From contig NZ_JADGHZ010000010.1 in the NCBI RefSeq assembly GCF_019683595.1, positions 1 to 45,024 of the forward strand: a stretch of DNA of 45,024 bases. The letters run 5' to 3'. The notes beneath the pieces were generated by a model. That model saw only the letters and a list, made by a program, of their open reading frames with translations, did not search any database and was not told the origin of the DNA. The translations under genes and the position numbers were made by a program. The stretch comes from Sphaerobacter sp. (GTDB lineage Bacteria > Chloroflexota > Chloroflexia > Thermomicrobiales > Thermomicrobiaceae). This document shows, piece after piece, positions 6,189 to 23,836 of this stretch; positions within the stretch are counted from its first letter, which is position 1, and the number at the start of each line of letters is the position of its first letter.

Positions 6189-7358
6189 GTGACGTACCAC
6201 TTCGCAGCCCGTGTCACCAGCATGCAGCCCTCACCGACGATCGCCGTCTCGGACCGCGTCCGAGCGCTCCGTCAGGAGGGTCACGATGTCCTCGACCTGG
6301 GCGGCGGTGACCCAGACTTTGCCACCCCCGAACACATCTGCCGCGCCGCCGCCGAGGCCATGGCCCGCGGCGAGACGCACTACGTCGCCAGCGCCGGCAT
6401 CCTCCCGCTGCGCCAGGCCATCGCCCGCAAGCTCCGCGACGAAAACGGGATCGACGTCGACCCCAGCCAGATCATCGTCACGCCGGGCGGGAAGTCCGCA
6501 CTCTTCTCCGCCATCCTGGCCCTGGTCGGACCCGGCGACGATGTGGTCATGTTCGACCCCGGCTGGGTCTCGTATGAACCGATGACCACCATCGCCGGCG
6601 CCGGAATCGCCCGCATTCCGCTCGATCCGGCCGACAACTACCGCATCACCCGCGAGGTTATCGAGCCGCACCTCACGCCCAACGCGCGGGTGCTCATCGT
6701 CAACAGCCCCAACAACCCGACCGGGCGCGTCCTCACCCGTGAGGAGCTGGAGGTGGTGGCCGCCATCGCGCAGGAGCGCGACCTGATCGTCATCTCGGAC
6801 GAGATCTACGAGAAGATCGTCTACGACCACCACCAGCACATCAGCATCGCGACGCTGCCCGGGATGGCCGAGCGCACCATCACCGTCAACGGCTTCTCCA
6901 AGGCCTACGCGATGACCGGCTGGCGACTCGGCTACCTGGCCGCGCCCGCGCCGATCATCAAGCAGGTGGCCAAGATCCACAGCCACTCGGTCACCTGCGC
7001 CACGTCGTTCGCCCAATACGGCGCGGTGGCTGCCCTCGAAGGACCGCAGGGCTTCATCGACACCATGGTCGAGGCCTGGGACCGCCGTCGCCGCCTGATC
7101 TCCTCCGGCCTGAGCGCGATCAAGGGCGTGCACTGCCCGCTGCCGGAGGGCGCCTTCTACGCCTTTGCCGACGTGAGCGGCACCGGGATGACCGGCCAGG
7201 AGGTGGCGCGCCTGCTCATCGACGAGGCGCGGGTCGGCGTCACCCCCGGCGATGCCTTCGGCGAGGTCAGCGCGAAGCACATCCGCCTCAGCTTCGCCAA
7301 CTCCGACGACATCATCGAGCGCTCCCTGGAGCGCATCACGCGCGTCCTGGGCGGCTAA
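6189..7358 (+). CDS. Class I/II PLP aminotransferase (aspartate type)
   Basis: This 389-aa PLP enzyme of fold type I is probably an aspartate or related amino-acid transaminase of subfamily I-gamma. Seen in the protein are LRQEGHDVLDLGGGDPDFATP (substrate-binding N-terminus), GKSALFSAI (cofactor phosphate contact), NSPNNPTGRV (PLP ring Asn), SDEIYEKIVYD (Asp/Tyr to PLP), and NGFSKAYAMTGWRLGYLA with the Schiff-base Lys near residue 238. IRLSFANSDD provides the C-terminal carboxylate-binding Arg. I chose the GTG at 6189 because GGAGGAGG stands 7 nt upstream; an in-frame extension to 5928 has no ribosome site and runs into the groSL control region. It is monocistronic, with a perfect hairpin 40 nt after the stop. 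I see nothing firm in 5941-6188 apart from a weak CATAAT at 6105-6110. Confidence 0.92.
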   Translation: MTYHFAARVTSMQPSPTIAVSDRVRALRQEGHDVLDLGGGDPDFATPEHICRAAAEAMARGETHYVASAGILPLRQAIARKLRDENGIDVDPSQIIVTPGGKSALFSAILALVGPGDDVVMFDPGWVSYEPMTTIAGAGIARIPLDPADNYRITREVIEPHLTPNARVLIVNSPNNPTGRVLTREELEVVAAIAQERDLIVISDEIYEKIVYDHHQHISIATLPGMAERTITVNGFSKAYAMTGWRLGYLAAPAPIIKQVAKIHSHSVTCATSFAQYGAVAALEGPQGFIDTMVEAWDRRRRLISSGLSAIKGVHCPLPEGAFYAFADVSGTGMTGQEVARLLIDEARVGVTPGDAFGEVSAKHIRLSFANSDDIIERSLERITRVLGG

Positions 7359-7398
7359 CCAGGCCACCCACCAGCCGCGCGACCGGGCAACCACGATA

Positions 7399-7427
7399 GA
7401 AGCGGGCGTCGTGTTGACGCCCGCTTC
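7399..7427 (+). terminator. Hairpin terminator after aminotransferase
   Basis: A perfect 12-bp stem (GAAGCGGGCGTC, loop GTGTT, complement GACGCCCGCTTC) lies 41 nt past the aminotransferase stop. There is no long T-run after it. Confidence 0.65.
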
Positions 7428-7441
7428 GTCGTCCCCGGGGG

Positions 7442-7470
7442 TTGCCAAACTAATATCATTAGTTTATGAT
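7442..7470 (+). promoter_or_regulatory. Promoter with palindromic operator in its spacer
   Basis: TTGCCA (7442-7447), a 17-nt spacer and TATGAT (7465-7470) form a strong sigma-70-like promoter for the hydrolase-tetR pair. The palindrome AAACTAATATCATTAGTTT (7447-7465, two perfect 8-nt arms around ATC) fills the spacer and touches both boxes. A further half-site TATTAGTT follows at 7478-7485. Its position and symmetry are what one expects for an autoregulatory TetR operator; the regulator is encoded second in this operon (8252-8824). Confidence 0.82.
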
Positions 7471-7533
7471 TGAAGCGTATTAGTTCCAGAGCGCGGACGA
7501 GACGTCCCGCCGATCCCCCGGAAGGGAACGCAC

Positions 7534-8262
7534 ATGAAGGTCACGACCCACGGCGACTACCTCATCCAGGTGACCCGCTGGCCGGTCCTGTTCCCGGTCA
7601 ACGTCTATCTGGTCCGCGAGGACGACGGGTTTACGCTGATCGACACCGGCGCCAACGGCAGTGGGCCGGGCATCCTGGCCGCCGCAGCCGCGCATGGTGA
7701 AACCATTCGCCGCATCGTGCTCACGCACGCCCACTCCGACCACGTGGGCGCGCTCGACCAGCTCCGCGGCGCGCTGCCCGCTGCCGAGGTGCTCATGACC
7801 GATCGCAGCGCCCGGCTGCTCCAGGGTGAAAGGACGCTCGAAATCGACGGTGAAGTCGTAGCCATCCCCGGCCGGTGGCCGCGCCGCGTAACCCGGCCGA
7901 CGCGCACCATCGCGCCAGGAGACCGGATCGGCTCGCTCCAGGTCATCGCCGCGCCCGGCCACGCACCAGATCAGGTTGCATTCCTTGACACACGGGACCG
8001 CACGCTCATCGCCGGGGACGCTTTCCAAACGCGGGGCGATGTCGCCGTCTCGGGTACGATCGTCCCCACGTTCCCGTTCCCCTCGATCTTTACCTGGGAC
8101 AAGGATGCGGCCCTCGACTCTGCGCGGCTGCTGCGGTCGCTCGAGCCGTCGCGGCTGGCGACCGGTCACGGTCCCGTGTTGGAGGATCCGCTCCCCGCGA
8201 TGGACCGCGCCATCGCCGTAGCCCAGCGCAAGCTGGCGGATAGGGTTGCGCATGGCGCCTAG
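7534..8262 (+). CDS. Metallo-beta-lactamase-fold hydrolase
   Basis: This 242-aa protein of the MBL superfamily has the metal-binding signature THAHSDHVG (His65, His67, Asp69, His70), a second-ligand region APGHAPDQVAFLD (His near 147), the bridging Asp in LIAGDAFQ (near 167) and the final ligand in LATGHGPVLED. This is a complete dinuclear site, so hydrolase activity is likely (lactonase, thioesterase or glyoxalase-II-like). The substrate cannot be read from sequence. It starts with VTRWPVLFPVNVYLV, typical of the YflN/quorum-quencher-like branch. The ATG at 7534 has GGAAGGGAA upstream. Its 3' end overlaps the start of the tetR gene by 11 nt, so both are made from one promoter containing a palindromic operator. 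This suggests an inducible function whose substrate or a relative may be the TetR ligand. Confidence 0.9.
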   Translation: MKVTTHGDYLIQVTRWPVLFPVNVYLVREDDGFTLIDTGANGSGPGILAAAAAHGETIRRIVLTHAHSDHVGALDQLRGALPAAEVLMTDRSARLLQGERTLEIDGEVVAIPGRWPRRVTRPTRTIAPGDRIGSLQVIAAPGHAPDQVAFLDTRDRTLIAGDAFQTRGDVAVSGTIVPTFPFPSIFTWDKDAALDSARLLRSLEPSRLATGHGPVLEDPLPAMDRAIAVAQRKLADRVAHGA

Positions 8263-8824
8263 ACCGGGACTGAGCCGCGACCTCATCGTGAAGACCGCCG
8301 CCGATCTCCTGGACGAGGCGGATGGGCGGGAGGTGACGCTCGGCCAGATCGCCGCGGCGCTGGGGGTGCGCACGCCGTCCCTCTACAACCACATCGACGG
8401 CCAGGACGATCTGCTACGTGGGCTGGCCGTGTTCGCCGTGCGGGAGCTCGGCGCCCGCATCTCGCGCGCGGCGATCGGCCGCACCGGGGAGGACGCCATC
8501 CTCGCCATCGGACACGCCTACCGGCAGTTCGCGCACGAGCGTCCCCGGCTCTACCAAGCCTCGCTGCGTGCGCCGGACCCGGATCATCAGGCGCTCATTG
8601 ATGCCAGCGAGGAGATCCTGGATGTCCTGAGGCTGGTGCTCAAGCCGTACCAGCTCTCCCCCGAGGATCAGATCCACGCCATCCGCGGTCTGAGGAGCCT
8701 GATGCACGGCTTCGTCTCACTGGAGTTGGCTGGTGGCTTCGGCCTTCCCGTCGACATCGACGAAAGCTACCGCCGCCTCCTCACGGGGTTCATCCGCGGA
8801 CTCCAACGCGAAGGGGGCGCCTAG
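8252..8824 (+). CDS. TetR-family repressor (WHG-type C-terminal domain)
   Basis: This 190-aa one-component regulator has an N-terminal helix-turn-helix: SRDLIVKTAADLLDEADG, then VTLGQIAAALGVRTPSLYNH, the recognition helix ending in the characteristic LYNHI. The C-terminal ligand/dimer domain contains YRQFAHERPRLYQASLRAP, typical of the TetR_C_33 (WHG) group. The ATG at 8252 (AGGG 6 nt upstream) overlaps the end of the hydrolase gene, giving translational coupling; a TTG two codons earlier is less likely. It probably represses its own operon by binding the palindrome at 7447-7465. The operon ends directly in the repeat region at 8824-8981. Confidence 0.92.
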   Translation: MAPRPGLSRDLIVKTAADLLDEADGREVTLGQIAAALGVRTPSLYNHIDGQDDLLRGLAVFAVRELGARISRAAIGRTGEDAILAIGHAYRQFAHERPRLYQASLRAPDPDHQALIDASEEILDVLRLVLKPYQLSPEDQIHAIRGLRSLMHGFVSLELAGGFGLPVDIDESYRRLLTGFIRGLQREGGA

Positions 8825-8981
8825 TGCGTGGTGCGTGTTCCGTGTTCCGTCGTCCGTGCGCAGTGGCGGGGACACGCTCGACCGGTCCGCCGTCAGACCG
8901 ACAACCCGCCTCCACGCAAAACCCAAGACGCATCACGCAACCCGGATCACGGATCACGCATCACGCAACACGCACCACGAC
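8824..8981. repeat. Dispersed inverted repeat, copy A (TTCCGTG / CACGCA family)
   Basis: The whole convergent gap between tetR and the Nif3-like gene is made of short reiterated words: GTGCGTG and TTCCGTG on the left, and CACGCA, GGATCACG and CACGCACCACG on the right. The ends form an imperfect inverted repeat (8827-8844 against 8962-8979, 17 of 18 pairs). A 22-nt run at 8828-8849 (core GTGCGTGTTCCGTGTTCCG) is identical to 35142-35163. I read it as a non-coding dispersed repeat that may also serve as a bidirectional transcription end. Confidence 0.75.
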
Positions 8982-9809
8982 TCACAGCCCGCTCATGCGC
9001 ACCACTTCGACACCGCGCTCTTCCAGCGCCTGGACGTAGCGGTTGATGCCGACGAGGTCGCTGGCGATGTGGCCGGAAACGATGAGGTTCCCACCACCCT
9101 CGCGGCGCAGGCGCTCCGCCTCCTCGGGAGCGATGTGGATGTAGAGGACCGTCCGCACGCCGTGGTCGAAGTAGGCGCGGGCAACGGCGTACCCGCCGTT
9201 CGTCCCCGCCCCGTGCACCACCGCGATCTTGCCCAGGGGCTGATCCACCGCGCCGACCGGGACCATGATCCGCGTCGCCGCGCCGGCAAACTCCGGCAGC
9301 GTCATGAGCGCGTCGATCGCGTCCTGCACCCGCGCCTCGTCCCCCAACGGCTCGACCGCCTCCTGGATGGTCTTGACCATGATCCGTCGTCCGACCTCGT
9401 CCAGCGGCAGGTGGATATTGAGGAACGGCATCTGGAGGAGACGCGCGACCGACGGCGTGTGGTCGTGGTTGGCGCTCTGCGCGCGGAGCAGTGAGCGGGT
9501 GAGCAGCCCCTGGATGGCGTCGCGGGCCGCGGTGGCCGGGACGCCATACTCCACCATCAGCTCAACATGGCGTGTGAGAACCTCGGGAAAATTGAGCGTT
9601 GCGCTGCCACCGGCCGGGTGGTGGGCGATCACCCCGTCGCAGCCCAACTCCCGCGCCAGGAGCAGCTCCGCCGGGCCGATATCGATGCCCATCATCACGC
9701 GCTTGAGGCCCGATCCCTCGACGTAGACCGCGCTGTCGGCGGGCAACGTCCGCATCTCCGCCATCTCGAGCGCGATATCGACCAGTTCTGCGGTGCTCAA
9801 CCCGGCCAT
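8982..9809 (-). CDS. Nif3-like (DUF34 / YbgI family) protein
   Basis: This 275-aa protein belongs to the Nif3/YqfO/YbgI (DUF34) family of toroidal, di-metal-binding hexamers, annotated elsewhere as GTP cyclohydrolase I type 2 homologues but of uncertain biochemistry. Visible family features are the N-terminal ELVDIALEMAEM, the metal-binding GCDGVIAHHPAGG (His-His), a variant NHDHTPS, VVHGAGTNGGYAVARAYFDHGV and the late ligand region IVSGHIASDLVGINRY. It lacks the PII-like insertion seen in longer homologues, so it is a short-form member with some divergence. The ATG at 9809 follows GCGGAGGCGTGC. It appears monocistronic, convergent with the tetR operon, and its 3' end runs into repeat copy A. 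Confidence 0.82.
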   Translation of the reverse strand: MAGLSTAELVDIALEMAEMRTLPADSAVYVEGSGLKRVMMGIDIGPAELLLARELGCDGVIAHHPAGGSATLNFPEVLTRHVELMVEYGVPATAARDAIQGLLTRSLLRAQSANHDHTPSVARLLQMPFLNIHLPLDEVGRRIMVKTIQEAVEPLGDEARVQDAIDALMTLPEFAGAATRIMVPVGAVDQPLGKIAVVHGAGTNGGYAVARAYFDHGVRTVLYIHIAPEEAERLRREGGGNLIVSGHIASDLVGINRYVQALEERGVEVVRMSGL

Positions 9810-9948
9810 GCACGCCTCCGCTCACTTCACCCCAATGGACACGCCGCGCCGAAGCCTCAGCTGCGCGCGCCATTCTACGCAGGTGCAGCGACAGGGGCAA
9901 TTGATCGAGCCGGATCGAGCAGGAGAGCGTCTGAGCCGGGCGACGCGC

Positions 9949-10254
9949 TCAGGCCTGCATCGCCTCGCGTGCCTGAACCTTGTGCCACTCGGGCCTGCCA
10001 TCGTCCATGGACGACCGGTTCAAGGGCTCGCGCGTCTGCCGGAAGGGCGGCGTTTCATGCCAGCGCTCCCAGTCGTCGCGGGAGCGCCAGGTGCCGACCA
10101 CAACCCGCTTGTTCGGCTCGTCCTCGGGGATGAGCAACTGGGTATCAACCCATCCCGGCTGTTGCTTCGCGGCACGCAACCGCTCCTCGAACGCTCGGTC
10201 CCACTCCTGCTCCTGGCCGGGCTTGAGGGTTGTCTCGGTGATGACGGTCATCAT
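9949..10254 (-). CDS. Antibiotic biosynthesis monooxygenase (ABM)-domain protein
   Basis: This small 101-aa protein has a ferredoxin-like ABM/dimeric alpha-beta barrel pattern. It opens MMTVITETTLKPGQEQEWDRAFEERL, continues with PGWVDTQLLIPEDEPNKRVVVGTW and SRDDWERWHETPPFRQTREPL. Such proteins act as small cofactor-free oxygenases, heme-binding proteins or simply stress-associated dimers, so no reaction is assigned. The ATG at 10254 has GGAGGTAGGTGG just upstream; an in-frame extension to 10389 is rejected because it is Arg/Gly-rich and overlaps the divergent selD promoter. It is transcribed away from selD. Confidence 0.72.
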   Translation of the reverse strand: MMTVITETTLKPGQEQEWDRAFEERLRAAKQQPGWVDTQLLIPEDEPNKRVVVGTWRSRDDWERWHETPPFRQTREPLNRSSMDDGRPEWHKVQAREAMQA

Positions 10255-10376
10255 GGTCCACCTACCTCCATCGCCAGACCGTTCGGACCGTTCCCGGCCG
10301 CTGCCGGGTGTCTCGGTGACGCCAGCACGATCGGTACCACTCCGAGCACGCCGTGCGACACCGGCCGACGGGAAGG

Positions 10377-10405
10377 TTGAGCCGGGCACGCGTGTTGGCT
10401 ATGAT
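10377..10405 (+). promoter_or_regulatory. selD operon promoter
   Basis: TTGAGC (10377-10382), a 17-nt spacer and TATGAT (10400-10405) predict a start near 10412 and a leader of about 70 nt. The leader begins with a 7-bp hairpin (GTTCGGC, loop GCGGT, GCCGAAC; 10417-10435). It has a second possible short stem GACCC/GGGTC (about 10446-10463) before the ribosome site GGAAGG at 10467-10472. Confidence 0.75.
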
Positions 10406-10481
10406 CGGGCCATGTGGTTCGGCGCGGTGCCGAACAAGCGGCGATGACCCGCGTTGTCAGGGTCCTGGAAGGAAAGCCACC

Positions 10482-11534
10482 GTGCAGTCTCGCGACGAGA
10501 TTCGCCTTACGACACTGGCGAGCTGCGCTGGTTGAGCGTCCAAGATGGGCCCAGAGGCCCTGGCGCAGGTGCTGCGTCCGCTCACTCAGCTCAGTGACCC
10601 CAACCTGATCGTCGGGCTCCAGACCAGCGATGACGCGGCTGTCTATCGCCTGAGCGACGACCTTGCCTTGATCCAGACGGTCGATTTCTTCACGCCTGTG
10701 GTCGACGACCCGTACATCTACGGCGCTATCGCCGCGGCCAACTCCATGAGCGACGTGTACGCTATGGGGGGTACGCCGCTGTTTGCCCTGAACATCGCCG
10801 GCTTCCCCGACAACGTGCCGCTCGACGTGCTGCAGCGCATCTTCCAGGGGGGCGCCGACAAGGCTGCCGAGGCCGGGATAGTCATCGCCGGAGGACACAC
10901 CGTCACCGACAACGAGCCGAAGTACGGCCTGGTCGTCACCGGCACGATCCGTCCCGATCGGGTTGTGACCAAGGCCGGCGCCCGACCAGGCGACGTGCTC
11001 TATCTCACCAAGCCGCTCGGCACCGGCGTCATCACCACCGCGCTCAAGGCCCAGGCGGCGGACCCGGCCGACGTGGACGAGGCCGTGGCGTCGATGCTCA
11101 AGCTCAACCGCGCCGCCGCGGCCCTGATGCAGCAGGTCGGGGTCAACGCCTGCACCGACATCACCGGCTTCGGAATGCTCGGCCACGCCACCGAGGTTGC
11201 GCAGAAGAGCGGCGTGCGCCTCGTCCTGTCGGCGGGGCAAATGCCGTGGCTCCCCGGCGCCGAGCGCTACGCCGCGGAGGGACGCCTCCCCGGCGGGGCG
11301 CGGCGCAACCGCGCCTTCTACGGCGAGGGACCGGAGAGCATCCTCGAGATTGCCCCTGGCATCCCGGAGACGACGCTGGACCTCCTGTTCGACCCCGAGA
11401 CCTCGGGAGGCCTGCTCATCGCGGTCCCGGGCGACCGGGCGCAGGCGCTGGAGCAGGCGTTCGCCGCGGCTGGTGAACCGCTCTGGCGGGTGGGCTCGGT
11501 CGAGGAGGGGCACGGGCTCCTCCTGCTGCCCTGA
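10482..11534 (+). CDS. selD: Selenide, water dikinase with selenocysteine at the active site (TGA recoded)
   Basis: SelD makes selenophosphate from selenide and ATP, the selenium donor for selenocysteine and selenouridine. The usual start would be called at the ATG at 10545, but that leaves out the catalytic N-terminus. Reading from the GTG at 10482 (GGAAGG upstream) gives a protein beginning MQSRDEIRLTTLASCAG, then TGA at 10533-10535, then ASKMGPEALAQVLRPL. Aligning the essential Lys (Lys21 here, Lys20 in E. coli) places the TGA codon at E. coli Cys17, the catalytic residue that is Sec in many SelD proteins. With Sec18 the protein is 350 aa, the normal family length. Other motifs are DDAAVY, TVDFFTPVVDDP, AANSMSDVYAMGG, AGGHTVTD and DITGFGMLGH. 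It is followed 5 nt later by rsmA. Confidence 0.93.
10533..10560 (+). promoter_or_regulatory. Candidate bacterial SECIS hairpin after the selD UGA
   Basis: Immediately after the UGA (10533-10535) the mRNA can form GGGCC (10547-10551), loop CAGA (10552-10555), GGCCC (10556-10560). This may be extended across a bulge by CCA (10540-10542) with TGG (10561-10563). The apical loop lies about 17-20 nt after the UGA, in the distance range known for bacterial SelB-dependent SECIS elements. The structure is short and GC-rich sequence forms hairpins easily, so this is suggestive only. Confidence 0.5.
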
Positions 11535-11539
11535 GTGGG

Positions 11540-12433
11540 ATGGAGGGGCGTGTGCGGCGGCGGGAACGGCCCCGGCATCGCGGAGAGCGCGAGCGCACCG
11601 AGCCGACATTCCGCGACCTGCTGGACGAGATCGGCGTCCGGCCGAGCAAGGCGCTCGGCCAGAACTTCCTGCACGACACTCGGATCGTCCAGCGCATCGC
11701 GGACGTCGCCGAGCTCGGTCCCGACGACCTCGTCGTCGAGGTCGGTCCCGGCCTCGGCATCCTCACCCGCGAGCTGGCGCGCCGCGCGGGCACGGTGATC
11801 GCCGTCGAGCTCGACACGCGCCTCGCCGCCCACCTGCGTGCGTCGCTTGAGGCGGAAAACGTGCGCATCGTCGAGGGCGACATCCTCGACCTGAATCTCG
11901 GAGACCTCGTCGGAGGGCGACCCTACCACGTGGTCGCCAACCTCCCATACTCCGTCGCAGCGGCCGTCATCGAGCACGTGCTGGAGAGCGATCACCGCCC
12001 CGGCCGCATGGTCGTCATGGTGCAGCGCGAGGTGGCCGAGCGGATCGTTGCTCGCCCGCCGGAGATAAGCGTCCTCGCCGTTGCCGTGCAGTTCTATGCG
12101 GAGCCCCGCATCGCCTTCCGCGTCGGTCCGGGAGCCTTCGTGCCACGCCCGCGCGTCGACTCTGCCGTGCTGCGCCTGGATCTGAAGCCGGACCCGCCGC
12201 TCTCCGGCGCCGACCGGGCAGCCTTCTTCACCCTCGTCCGCGCCGGGTTCTCTCAGCGACGAAAGCGGCTCGCGAACGCCCTGGCCGATGCGCTGGGCGT
12301 ACCGAAGAGCGTGGTCGAGGAGCGACTGGCGGCCGCGGGCATCGACCCCGATCGCCGTGCCGAAACGCTCTCGGTGGAGGAGTGGCTTGCCGTGCAGCGC
12401 AGCTTCGGAGCGCAGCCGAGTGACGTCGATTGA
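11540..12433 (+). CDS. rsmA: 16S rRNA (A1518/A1519-N6)-dimethyltransferase
   Basis: RsmA (KsgA) dimethylates two adjacent adenines near the 3' end of 16S rRNA during late small-subunit assembly, using SAM. The 297-aa protein shows ALGQNFLHD (N-terminal RNA/SAM motif), VVEVGPGLGILTREL (motif I), VIAVELDTRL, VEGDILDL, and the catalytic NLPYSVAAAVI (motif IV, NLPY), followed by VMVQREVAERI and FVPRPRVDSAVL. The C-terminal helical part (AGFSQRRKRLANAL) is complete. The ATG at 11540 lies 5 nt after the selD stop; a GTG at 11552 behind GGAGGGG is an alternative start, and the extra N-terminus is Arg-rich. It overlaps ispE by 14 nt, an rsmA-ispE order common in many bacteria. Confidence 0.97.
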   Translation: MEGRVRRRERPRHRGERERTEPTFRDLLDEIGVRPSKALGQNFLHDTRIVQRIADVAELGPDDLVVEVGPGLGILTRELARRAGTVIAVELDTRLAAHLRASLEAENVRIVEGDILDLNLGDLVGGRPYHVVANLPYSVAAAVIEHVLESDHRPGRMVVMVQREVAERIVARPPEISVLAVAVQFYAEPRIAFRVGPGAFVPRPRVDSAVLRLDLKPDPPLSGADRAAFFTLVRAGFSQRRKRLANALADALGVPKSVVEERLAAAGIDPDRRAETLSVEEWLAVQRSFGAQPSDVD

Positions 12434-20807: not shown

Positions 20808-21719
20808 CTACAGGATCCGCCCACAACGCGGGCAGTAGACCTCCGCCTCGCTGACATCGGCGTGGCAGTAGGGACACGTGCCGTCCGACACCGGCACGTG
20901 CGATTCTTCCCGCGGCGTGGTCTGGATCTGGATCGTCTCATGCGCGTCCCGCAGCAACGCGGTCGCCTCCGCATCGAGCCGGGCGCCGCCTGAGCGGGAC
21001 GCGTCGCCATCCGCCTCCGAGATCCGTACCGGCCGGGTCTCCTCCGCGGCACGCACCGGGACGGTCGGCGGCTCGGTCTTGTACACGGCCGTCGCCTCGT
21101 CGTTGAGCGACGACGGCACACGCGGCGGGAAGGCCCGCGTCGTCGGCGGTTCGATCTCTGGATAGGGCTCGGGCGCCTCCTCTTCCTCGACCTCAACGTA
21201 GCCGCCCCGGCCGAACAAGGCCAGGACGATCACGATCGGCAGGAAGACCACCGCTGCCACCAGCAGCACCCAGCCGATGCCGGTCGCGAGGAACTGCGCC
21301 ACCACCGCGCGCTCCAGGAACGCCGGATTCTCAGCCGAGAGCAGGTAGAAGCGGATGTCACGCAGCGCGTAGCTCAGCAGCAGCGTGCCGTTCGCCCCCG
21401 CCACAAGCGCCCCGAAGACGCGGGCGACCCATCCCGGCCGCGGCATGGGCAGCGCCGCGCCGGCACCGTAGCCAAGCAGGAACGTGCTGCCGATCAGGAA
21501 CAAGACGGCGACCATGAAGGCGCCACCGGACTCGCGCAGGCCGGTCATATTCGCCAGGTCGGCGCCCCATGGGCCGGCCCACGACTCGGCCAGTGCGGCC
21601 CCGAAGAGGATGCCGAGGGTGACCAGCACCTCGCGCTGCACCCCACGCCAGAACCCGATCGGCACGAACAACGCGATGAGAATCAGCAGCAGAATGTCGA
21701 GCAACAGGTAGACGTTCAC
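20808..21719 (-). CDS. CvpA-like membrane protein with C-terminal zinc ribbon
   Basis: This 303-aa protein has an N-terminal half of several membrane helices (VYLLLDILLLILIALFVPIG, AFMVAVLFLIGSTFLLGYG, AQFLATGIGWVLLVAAVVFL and nearby). A pattern FWRGVQREVLVTLGILFG recalls the CvpA / colicin V production family. Then comes a long acidic and Thr/Pro-rich cytoplasmic linker (about 190-280). It ends in a zinc ribbon, CPYCHADVSEAEVYCPRCGRIL (C-x2-C ... C-x2-C). I read it as a membrane scaffold or regulator; no enzyme motif is visible. The GTG at 21719 (AGGGAG 8 nt upstream) puts the first helix at the very N-terminus; the upstream extension to 21836 is polar and unlikely. It is divergent from the PHP-domain gene. 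Confidence 0.72.
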   Translation of the reverse strand: MNVYLLLDILLLILIALFVPIGFWRGVQREVLVTLGILFGAALAESWAGPWGADLANMTGLRESGGAFMVAVLFLIGSTFLLGYGAGAALPMPRPGWVARVFGALVAGANGTLLLSYALRDIRFYLLSAENPAFLERAVVAQFLATGIGWVLLVAAVVFLPIVIVLALFGRGGYVEVEEEEAPEPYPEIEPPTTRAFPPRVPSSLNDEATAVYKTEPPTVPVRAAEETRPVRISEADGDASRSGGARLDAEATALLRDAHETIQIQTTPREESHVPVSDGTCPYCHADVSEAEVYCPRCGRIL

Positions 21720-22009
21720 GGTTGTGGCTCCCTGGTTCGCGGCGGAGAGTTCAGTCGTTGAGCAGCGCTCGGGGAACGAGAGCGGACCGGATTTCTCCTC
21801 AAAACGAGACCGCGAGCACCTGCGCTCGGCGGTCATAGCGGCCCTGCGTCGCCCTACCGGTACCGGATACCGCCGCTAGATTGTAGCACGCGGACTTTCG
21901 GGCGGTGCGAGGCATCCGCCCCTATGATATGCTTTCGGTGCGGGGTCAGGCCGTGGGACGAGCGATTCCACCACGGCCTGTCGTGTATCAACACATTGTC
22001 AGGAAGGGG

Positions 22010-23836
22010 GTGCCAGTATCACCCTTGGCTAGAAGCAGACGTCCTCGCCAGCGTCCCGCGGAACCTCAGGAACGCCAGGATCTCGCCTGGCGGACGATGG
22101 ATCTCCACATCCATACCCCCGCCTCTGCCGACTATCAGGAGCAGGGTGTCAGTTTCGTCCACCTCTTGCAGCGGGCCGAGGCTCGCGGCATCGATATCCT
22201 CGCGTTCACCGATCACAACACGGTCCGCGGCTGGGCGCGCATGTGGCGAGAGATTGAGGACCTGGAACTCCTCGAAGCCCTCGGACGACTTGAACCGGAG
22301 GAAGAAGCGCTCCTCGCGGAATACCGCCGGCTCCTGAACAAGATGCTCGTCCTCCCTGGCTTCGAGTTCACCGCGACCTTCGGGTTCCACATCCTGGCCA
22401 TCTTCCCGCCCGACACCTCGATTCGGAAGATGGAGCACATCCTGCTGACCCTCGGCATCCCGGAAGAAAAGCTCGACCAGGGGAGCAGCGAGGTCGGCGC
22501 GACGACCGAGGTCCTCCAAGCCTACGAGATCCTGCACGAGGCCGGCGCGCTGGTGATCGGCGCGCACGTCAATTCGACACACGGCATCGCCATGCAGGGC
22601 TTCCCCTTCGGAGGCCAGACGAAGATCGCCTATACCCAAAGCCCGTACCTGCACGCGCTCGAGGCTACCGACCTCGACAACACCTCGCGGCGGAGCACCG
22701 CGCGCTTCTTCAACGGCACCAAGCCGGAGTACCCGCGCCGGATGCACGTCATCCAGGGGTCCGACGCGCATCGACTCACGCGCGACCCGGAGCGCGAGAC
22801 GAACCTGGGCATCGGCGATCGCATGACTGAGGTCCTGTTGGGAGAACTCAGCTTCGAGGCCCTCAAGGCCGTCTTCGAAGGCGACGACTTCTCCCTGTTC
22901 CGTCCCCACCGCCCGTCGGAGGCCCCGTACGACTTCGTGCTGGCCGCCCGGGAGGAGGGGAACAACATCGTTCAGGCGTTCCACCCGCGCCTGCCCAGCC
23001 GGCGGTCGAAGTCGAACGCTGTGCTGAAGGATGTGGTGGCCTTCGCCAACACCAACGGCGGCACGATCTTTATCGGGCTGGACGCCAAGCCCGACGGTGA
23101 GATCAACGGCGTGGCCAACGCCAAGCAAGCCGCCGAGACCCTCCGCAACGACATCGCCCGCTTCATCACTCCGCCCCCGGCTGCCACGGTTGATGTCCAT
23201 ACGATTGAGGACAAGGATGTCCTGGTGGTCACGGTGCCGCAGGGCCAGGACAAGCCCTACGCGCTCCTCACCGGCGAGATCCTGCTCCGGCAAGAGTCGG
23301 AGACAAGCGTGGCCATGCGCGACGAGATCATTCAGATGGTGCGCGCCGCACTGGAGGCACGACGGGAAGCCGCGGCCGGGGCCGCTGCTGCGGGCGAGAC
23401 AGTGGCGTCCGACGATTCGCCCGCACTGCCGTCTGAGTTGAGCGACGACGAGGCGGAGGCGCGACTCCCACGGACGGGGGTCGAGATCGTGGCGTCCGAG
23501 ACCCGCGACGGCGTCATCTACCACTCGATGCGCGACCTGCGCAACCGCAAGGTCGTGCAGAACGTGACGCGAGACTCGGCGCGGCGACTCTGGCGCTATG
23601 CTATTACACAGAAAGAGTCGAACCCGATCGATCCCGAGAAGATCCGCTGGCACGGCCCGCTCGGCTTCATCAAGGCCCACAAGCAGCGGGACGGCAGCGT
23701 GCGCTACGACCTGGCCTACCGGCAGAACGGCCACGTGCGCGTCTTCTACGGCGTGACCGAAGAGGGTATCGACGACGACTGGCGCGTGGCGATTCAAACA
23801 GCCACCGGGAAACCGGTGGAAGCCGCGACGGCCTGA
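22010..23836 (+). CDS. PHP-domain phosphoesterase fused to AlbA_2-like DNA-binding domain
   Basis: This protein of about 608 aa joins two modules. Residues about 28-300 are a PHP domain: MDLHIHTPAS (first HxH), ILAFTDHNTVRG, LPGFEFTATFGFHILAIFP, VIGAHVNSTHG and VIQGSDAHR (late Asp-His). This is a near-complete trinuclear-metal site, as in PHP phosphoesterases. Residues about 310-450 match the AlbA_2 (Schlafen-type) domain: NAVLKDVVAFANTNGGTIFIG, the Gly-rich GLDAKPDGEINGV, and YALLTGEILLRQESETSVAM. A C-terminal part of about 100 aa (from GVEIVASETRDGVIYHSMRD) is unassigned. The start is uncertain: the GTG at 22010 (AGGA 5 nt upstream) is preferred, and the ATG at 21929 or GTG at 21905 are in frame. 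The 290-nt gap upstream has only a weak TATGAT at 21923-21928. Function is inferred to act on nucleic acid or nucleotide phosphates. Confidence 0.78.
   Translation: MPVSPLARSRRPRQRPAEPQERQDLAWRTMDLHIHTPASADYQEQGVSFVHLLQRAEARGIDILAFTDHNTVRGWARMWREIEDLELLEALGRLEPEEEALLAEYRRLLNKMLVLPGFEFTATFGFHILAIFPPDTSIRKMEHILLTLGIPEEKLDQGSSEVGATTEVLQAYEILHEAGALVIGAHVNSTHGIAMQGFPFGGQTKIAYTQSPYLHALEATDLDNTSRRSTARFFNGTKPEYPRRMHVIQGSDAHRLTRDPERETNLGIGDRMTEVLLGELSFEALKAVFEGDDFSLFRPHRPSEAPYDFVLAAREEGNNIVQAFHPRLPSRRSKSNAVLKDVVAFANTNGGTIFIGLDAKPDGEINGVANAKQAAETLRNDIARFITPPPAATVDVHTIEDKDVLVVTVPQGQDKPYALLTGEILLRQESETSVAMRDEIIQMVRAALEARREAAAGAAAAGETVASDDSPALPSELSDDEAEARLPRTGVEIVASETRDGVIYHSMRDLRNRKVVQNVTRDSARRLWRYAITQKESNPIDPEKIRWHGPLGFIKAHKQRDGSVRYDLAYRQNGHVRVFYGVTEEGIDDDWRVAIQTATGKPVEAATA

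Follow-up and report, generated by a model that had tools for sequence, protein, structure and literature searches.

A three-part PHP-AlbA_2 fusion protein of Chloroflexota, probably a stress-linked nucleic-acid processor

We found that a gene from a Sphaerobacter sp. encodes a conserved bacterial protein in which domains of two nucleic-acid-cutting superfamilies, PHP and Schlafen, are combined and followed by a C-terminal domain (CTD) for which Pfam has no name. This Chloroflexota fusion enzyme is probably a stress-linked nucleic-acid processor; the link to stress is drawn because in many relatives the gene stands in a row with stress-protein genes. The account that we favor, tentatively and at somewhat less than an even chance, is that of a vertically kept, metal-dependent phosphodiesterase that would trim or cut single-stranded nucleic acid, most likely RNA, under protein-damaging or oxidative stress.

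The gene lies at 22010..23836 (+ strand) of the window, by which we mean the whole stretch of 45,024 nucleotides that was analyzed, part of a 3.9 Mb draft genome. It encodes 608 amino acids from a GTG start and has orthologues across Chloroflexota. The reading frame around it is open from 21905. In L070, the corresponding locus of a Sphaerobacter metagenome-assembled genome (MAG), a stop codon lies eight codons 5' of the same GTG, and the purine-rich stretch CAGGAAGGGG (22000..22009, + strand) is found immediately 5' of the GTG in both sequences. Because of the upstream stop codon and the shared stretch, which would serve as a ribosome-binding site, the GTG start is supported, and 22010..23836 is a genuine open reading frame. 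The protein is 97% and 86% identical to its orthologues in two congeneric genomes (G001 and the MAG with L070, respectively), and identity across the order is 50-60%. The PHP metallophosphoesterase domain (residues 22-300; 22073..22909) is followed by the AlbA_2 (Schlafen-type) domain (residues 308-447; 22931..23350), a low-confidence linker (residues about 451-482; 23360..23455) and the CTD of ~115 amino acids (residues 485-599; 23462..23806), all on the + strand. The segment that holds the linker, 447-485, is variable in length, with 17-87 amino acids in relatives.

The PHP metal site had been described as apparently intact in the original prediction, and comparison of orthologues bore this out. 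The window protein has the motifs H33/H35, D68-H69-N70, E119, H127, H186 and D252-A-H254, with H33, H35, D41, D68/H69, E119, H127, H186, D252 and H254 as the ligands. The metal positions were unchanged in 76/76 aligned orthologues, apart from D41, which is aspartate in 72 and cysteine in 4. They were also kept in 31/31 diverse sequences from the phylum, again except for D41 (29/31), and an additional glutamate, E218, was invariant in all 76 orthologues. The metal site described in PMC5636811 is a trinuclear site of nine residues, with one cysteine among the ligands. The Pfam PHP model (PF02811) matched only at E 2.4e-4, under the Pfam cut-off. The fold is present: the predicted structure had a pLDDT of 97-98 across much of the core, and comparison by VIA gave Z scores of 12-19 with many PHP structures. 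For structure comparison against the PDB, each AlphaFold model was run once in Foldseek and once in VIA.

The middle region had been called AlbA_2-like, and failure to fold in this way had been named beforehand as an outcome that would refute the prediction. The fold was confirmed by structure comparison, and the sequence motif that goes with nuclease activity is gone. PF04326 matched residues 333-433 (23006-23308) at E 2e-19 (70.7 bits, cut-off 25.3) and was found in 31/31 members of set A2. In VIA the domain resembled DIP2311 (Z 12.1, 133 residues aligned, 3.1 A) and the Schlafens (Z 9-10; SLFN14, 9.9), so that the domain shares its fold with prokaryotic AlbA_2 proteins such as DIP2311 and with the core of SLFN5, SLFN11 and SLFN14. 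The Pfam match in the window protein begins at profile position 15, and the ExxxxEFK motif ahead of that position is missing. In a sample of 61 genomes, the matches in fusion proteins started at position 15-20 in 9/9 cases, whereas those in other AlbA_2 proteins started at position 1-4 in 30/37. When fusions were aligned with 21 non-fusion proteins (those of the 37 with a fetched locus), they carried G(P/A/N)xIVQxFHE where the others have GESxxxEFK. The two glutamates and the lysine of this motif were present in 19 of the 21 other proteins and in 0/76 fusions, in which the lysine position is never lysine; the window protein has N318, A323 and H325.

The corresponding residues of SLFN11 are E209, E214 and K216, with the numbering placed on the ExxxxEFK motif by us. 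These residues are reported to be essential for cleavage, the E209A, E214A and K216A mutants to be inactive, and Schlafen members that lack one such residue, for example SLFN5, to be nuclease-deficient (PMC9482658). The fusion thus differs from the Schlafen core in having lost the equivalents of these residues, and also in carrying a single AlbA_2 copy behind a PHP domain. We predict from the alignments that the AlbA_2 domain of the fusion is nuclease-dead, and because of the missing residues we rejected the reading of an active Schlafen RNase. They likewise count against the translation control suggested in the original prediction, as far as this would depend on an RNase of the Schlafen type. 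Since these residues are lost, catalysis should rest on the PHP domain. A solved protein, CbCash (PDB 9ylu), matches the AlbA_2 profile across most of the domain (7e-7); a literature search for a paper on it found none.

The CTD, which could not be placed at first, was modeled and searched, and it still has no Pfam family. Modeled in isolation it gave a confident structure (pLDDT 92.1, pTM 0.86), in which the elements follow one another as b-b-b-a-(b)-b-b-b-a. Searches of Pfam gave no consistent family match, Foldseek at E 0.001 found nothing in the PDB or in a viral library, and sequence searches for a relative with a solved structure found none. The best VIA score against the PDB was Z 4.7 over 48 residues. 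The lack of a PDB match does not prove a new fold. Three candidate assignments were rejected. The topology suggested a DUF1508/YegP-like repeat, but when profiles were compared, no more than 5 to 10 columns matched (E about 0.2). The twofold appearance (b3a-b3a) is one of topology only, as comparison of one half with the other gave E 0.28. A match to PadR in 17/76 members (best E 0.0045) was put down to chance because beta structure predominates in the model.

The CTD is a discrete modular unit, because it occurs in tandem in Chloroflexales and is joined to a different domain in another genome. Chloroflexales-type copies of the gene (frames of 771-813 amino acids) carry the CTD twice, the second one matching the window CTD at about 1e-6 to 1e-8 and the profile at 1e-8 to 1e-12. 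In genome G414 (L215:1786-3315), the same CTD (104.6 bits) and an NYN domain (4.7e-32) share one reading frame; the NYN domain, a PIN-like nuclease, takes the place of PHP-AlbA_2, and about 200 amino acids in the middle have no Pfam assignment. This was the only full-length NYN-CTD protein among 199 genomes of the class. Separate CTD-only genes were also considered and rejected: the short frames in G035, G558, G467 and G451, the frameshifted one in G472 and the broken one in G469 are fusion genes at contig ends or in broken frames.

We identified matches at 1e-10 or better in 67 of 400 Chloroflexota genomes. By our reading of the table, 62 of these have the three-part fusion, one copy each; several of the genes are listed as two adjacent pieces, and that of G062 is divided between two frames of a single contig. 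The five others are a PHP-SMC/TrlF protein (G067), PHP-only proteins (G266 and G325), a PHP-AlbA_2 protein (G420) and the NYN-CTD protein of G414. An independent search with the CTD found 63/400 genomes, the same 62 and G414. At the level of the order, a clear fusion was present in 30/61 genomes, and the copy in G035 is cut at a contig end. Among genomes of GTDB species, 593 candidate stretches contained at least 456 relatives. The best 80 of these were all titled as Chloroflexota groups, except for one 'Rubrobacter' MAG (L147), the titles being the depositors' own. Neither the 72,556 plasmid records nor the 50,697 phage records contained a full-length relative, and IMG/VR gave two short PHP-only matches and none to the CTD; the reading as phage or plasmid cargo was rejected for want of a full-length copy in these records. 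In the Chloroflexota sample, the family is chromosomal and single-copy. We found no description of this family in family libraries or in a literature search on the fusion, its surroundings and related proteins that left aside preprints and most subscription journals, in keeping with the view that this is not a well-described family. In G632, from another class (L320:259-2046 and 2130-2927), the three-part fusion is directly preceded, in the same orientation, by a gene for a protein that by eye looks HD-GYP-like.

The genes around the fusion were counted by tblastn with the neighbors found in one locus, L130, as queries against the best 80 of the at least 456 loci. These loci are mostly from MAGs and are phylogenetically non-independent, and the denominators are the loci with enough sequence. 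In L130, genes for Hsp20 (6592-7002), Lon (7016-9628), a lone receiver without an output domain (REC; 9631-9987), the PHP fusion (10028-11785) and a MogA-type molybdopterin protein (11789-12295) are separated by gaps of 13, 2, 40 and 3 bases. Within the best 80 loci, Lon was directly upstream and in the same orientation in 54/72 testable cases, REC was upstream in 52/78 (together with Lon in 42), Hsp20 was in the cluster in 42/66, the MogA-type protein was downstream in 33/71, and thiol peroxidase (TPx) was in the cluster in 9/59. Clustering of the open reading frames in the same set gave the same commonest neighbors (Lon in 51 loci, REC in 43, Hsp20 in 34 and MogA in 25; the next in 14). The tight co-directional order Hsp20-Lon-REC-PHP gene is found in Anaerolineae-type genomes. 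The phospho-acceptor D52 of the receiver is kept in 51/52 sequences and its lysine in 52/52, and the lone receiver is a good candidate for a regulator of the PHP gene product. The distances between PHP proteins correlate with those between the Lon proteins (r 0.82; 1326 pairs from 52 loci), as expected for joint inheritance, although shared species history alone would give the same. The survey of neighbors proposed with the original prediction led to a Lon linkage that extends across a phylum in which little genetics has been done.

The linkage has limits within the phylum. Lon (46% identical) is directly upstream in G217 and G357, which belong to another family of the window's own class. It does not adjoin the gene in the window's lineage (4/4 testable loci, L070, L071, L073 and L091; also L166-L169) or in Chloroflexales-type loci (5/5, L150-L154), and the window genome has two Lon proteins, both elsewhere. 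A heat-shock CIRCE box was sought 5' of Hsp20 in 39 loci and none was found; the best candidate had 6 mismatches, and shuffled sequences did equally well. The divergent neighbor of the PHP gene in the window (20808..21836, - strand) encodes a membrane protein that resembles CvpA and carries a zinc ribbon at its C terminus; the region has a relative of this protein in 11/14 Thermomicrobiales-type loci.

In the account that we favor, the PHP domain with its full metal site would be the catalytic part. The AlbA_2 domain, with a Schlafen fold and without the cleavage residues, would bind nucleic acid or position it for the PHP domain, and the CTD would be a second, modular recognition domain. In Anaerolineae-type genomes the tight gene order suggests joint production of the protein, Hsp20, Lon and a receiver competent to accept a phosphate, and in cluster-bearing genomes its level or activity would probably be tied to proteotoxic stress. 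We infer the nuclease activity, the co-transcription, the stress control and the choice of RNA as likeliest substrate. The preference for RNA over DNA is a weak one, drawn from the Schlafen relatives and the one NYN fusion. DNA is the main rival substrate, and it is the one used by Ppl and Endonuclease Q (EndoQ). Both the PHP domain and the AlbA_2 domain are acidic (median net charge -6 and -4, respectively), which speaks against a strong nucleic-acid binder. The absence of an adjoining Lon gene in the window's lineage and in Chloroflexales-type loci, together with the lack of a CIRCE box, counts against the account as well.

A bolder form of this account, possible but on balance unlikely, is a phylum-level stress ribonuclease or end-processing enzyme, with one Lon-Hsp20-receiver-PHP operon, a dead Schlafen module that would hold the substrate, and a CTD that would serve in nucleic-acid recognition and that an NYN nuclease would have borrowed too. 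If true, protein quality control in Chloroflexota would be wired to nucleic-acid processing, and the nuclease would be gated by Lon or by the receiver. Even short of this, the protein offers a newly defined domain and a Schlafen part in what is predicted to be a natural nuclease-dead form, and the gene order turns an annotation that would otherwise read merely PHP domain protein into a concrete hypothesis of stress-coupled processing.

A role in DNA damage is the strongest of the other explanations, though we consider it rather unlikely. The PHP domain would nick or trim damaged DNA in the manner of EndoQ or PolX, the AlbA_2 domain and CTD would recognize DNA structure, and Lon, TPx and Hsp20 would reflect oxidative and heat damage. 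EndoQ is the best structural match to the PHP domain (5zb8, Z 19.4, 224 residues aligned, 3.2 A; then TM0559, 17.2, and RNase AM, 15.8), and the DNA-bound EndoQ structure 7k30 was also among the matches. In PfuEndoQ, D6, L7, H8, H10, E76, H84, H139, E167, S191, D192, A193 and H194 are listed as conserved or important (PMC4357722). All 12 of the residues given there have counterparts in the window protein at similar spacing (D31 to H254, with the extra glutamate E218 for E167), invariant or nearly so, by a correspondence that we assigned from motif and spacing. By sequence, the nearest relative is Ppl, which is described as a 3'-5' single-stranded DNA exonuclease with a PHP exonuclease domain (PMC12904381). 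TPx, as noted, is part of the cluster in a minority of the loci. Against this explanation, the four-cysteine zinc finger of EndoQ is missing (there is no cysteine among the 608 residues), the C-terminal half differs, no EndoQ family model was among the NCBIfam matches, and no repair gene was recognized among the commonest neighbors.

The PHP domain could instead hydrolyze a small molecule. Many PHP proteins act on nucleotides, and the enzyme would then be a phosphatase or phosphodiesterase of a nucleotide (pAp or a signaling nucleotide), with the AlbA_2 domain and CTD as sensors. Weak matches to models of 3',5'-nucleoside bisphosphate phosphatase (5e-5) and RNase RNM (2e-6), and the similarity to the AMP-bound structure 2yb1 (VIA Z 13.5), agree with this explanation. 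RNase AM (RNase RNM/YciV) shares the PHP fold and motifs with the fusion but is shorter and lacks both the AlbA_2 domain and the CTD. We judge a small-molecule substrate to be less probable still than damaged DNA: the PHP domains closest in sequence, those of TrlF and Ppl, belong to nuclease-ATPases, and a domain of nucleic-acid-binding type is attached in all 62 of the fusion genomes among the 400 sampled.

The same similarity to TrlF/Ppl bears on the suggestion, also made originally, of anti-phage defense, which we regard as improbable. TrlF and Ppl combine a PHP domain with an SMC/AAA-type ATPase, and Ppl is anti-phage. Theirs is the nearest curated PHP domain along its whole length (matched by 38/38 members, at best with 1.3e-31 and 4.9e-27; NF045780, 3e-28, and NF042955, 2e-20, for the window protein), with the PHP part of NCBIfam TrlF covering residues 27-291 at E 1.8e-27. 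On the TrlF-type PHP profile, short ordinary PHP proteins of the same genomes span about 7-100 and the fusions about 1-277; among the matches listed for the sampled genomes, only fusions and true TrlF proteins covered the PHP part from end to end with a score of at least about 95 bits. The full-length TrlF/Ppl cut-offs were not reached (96.5 bits vs 350, and 74.1 vs 1000), only the PHP part matching; the fusion has AlbA_2 and CTD in place of the ATPase. Moreover, it is a single-copy chromosomal gene with conserved Lon/Hsp20 synteny and distances that track those of Lon, and it is absent at full length from the phage and plasmid records. A defense role is thus unlikely for the three-part family, while its PHP cousins, Ppl and the G420 protein, are or may be defense proteins. 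The G420 protein (L220:1846-4008; L321:8346-10508) is a distant PHP-AlbA_2 protein of 721 amino acids with an unrelated C-terminal half, flanked by frames that by eye look recombinase-, HNH- and NERD-like, and is perhaps a defense-type cousin.

Least probable is a mainly non-catalytic adaptor, in which the AlbA_2 domain and CTD do the conserved job and the PHP domain is a scaffold: one genus, g39, fits it, and the remaining aligned orthologues all have the metal site strictly conserved (76/76). In g39 (G201 and G436; L217:1887-4103 and L218:695-2473) nearly all the PHP ligands are lost and the AlbA_2 domain and CTD are retained. Although MAFFT did not place the first motif with certainty, the loss of HxHTPAS and TDHN is plain to see, and g39 has a predicted, natural, catalytically dead version of the fusion. 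With the other two domains kept, this loss implies that catalysis is not always needed and that the function may be partly non-catalytic.
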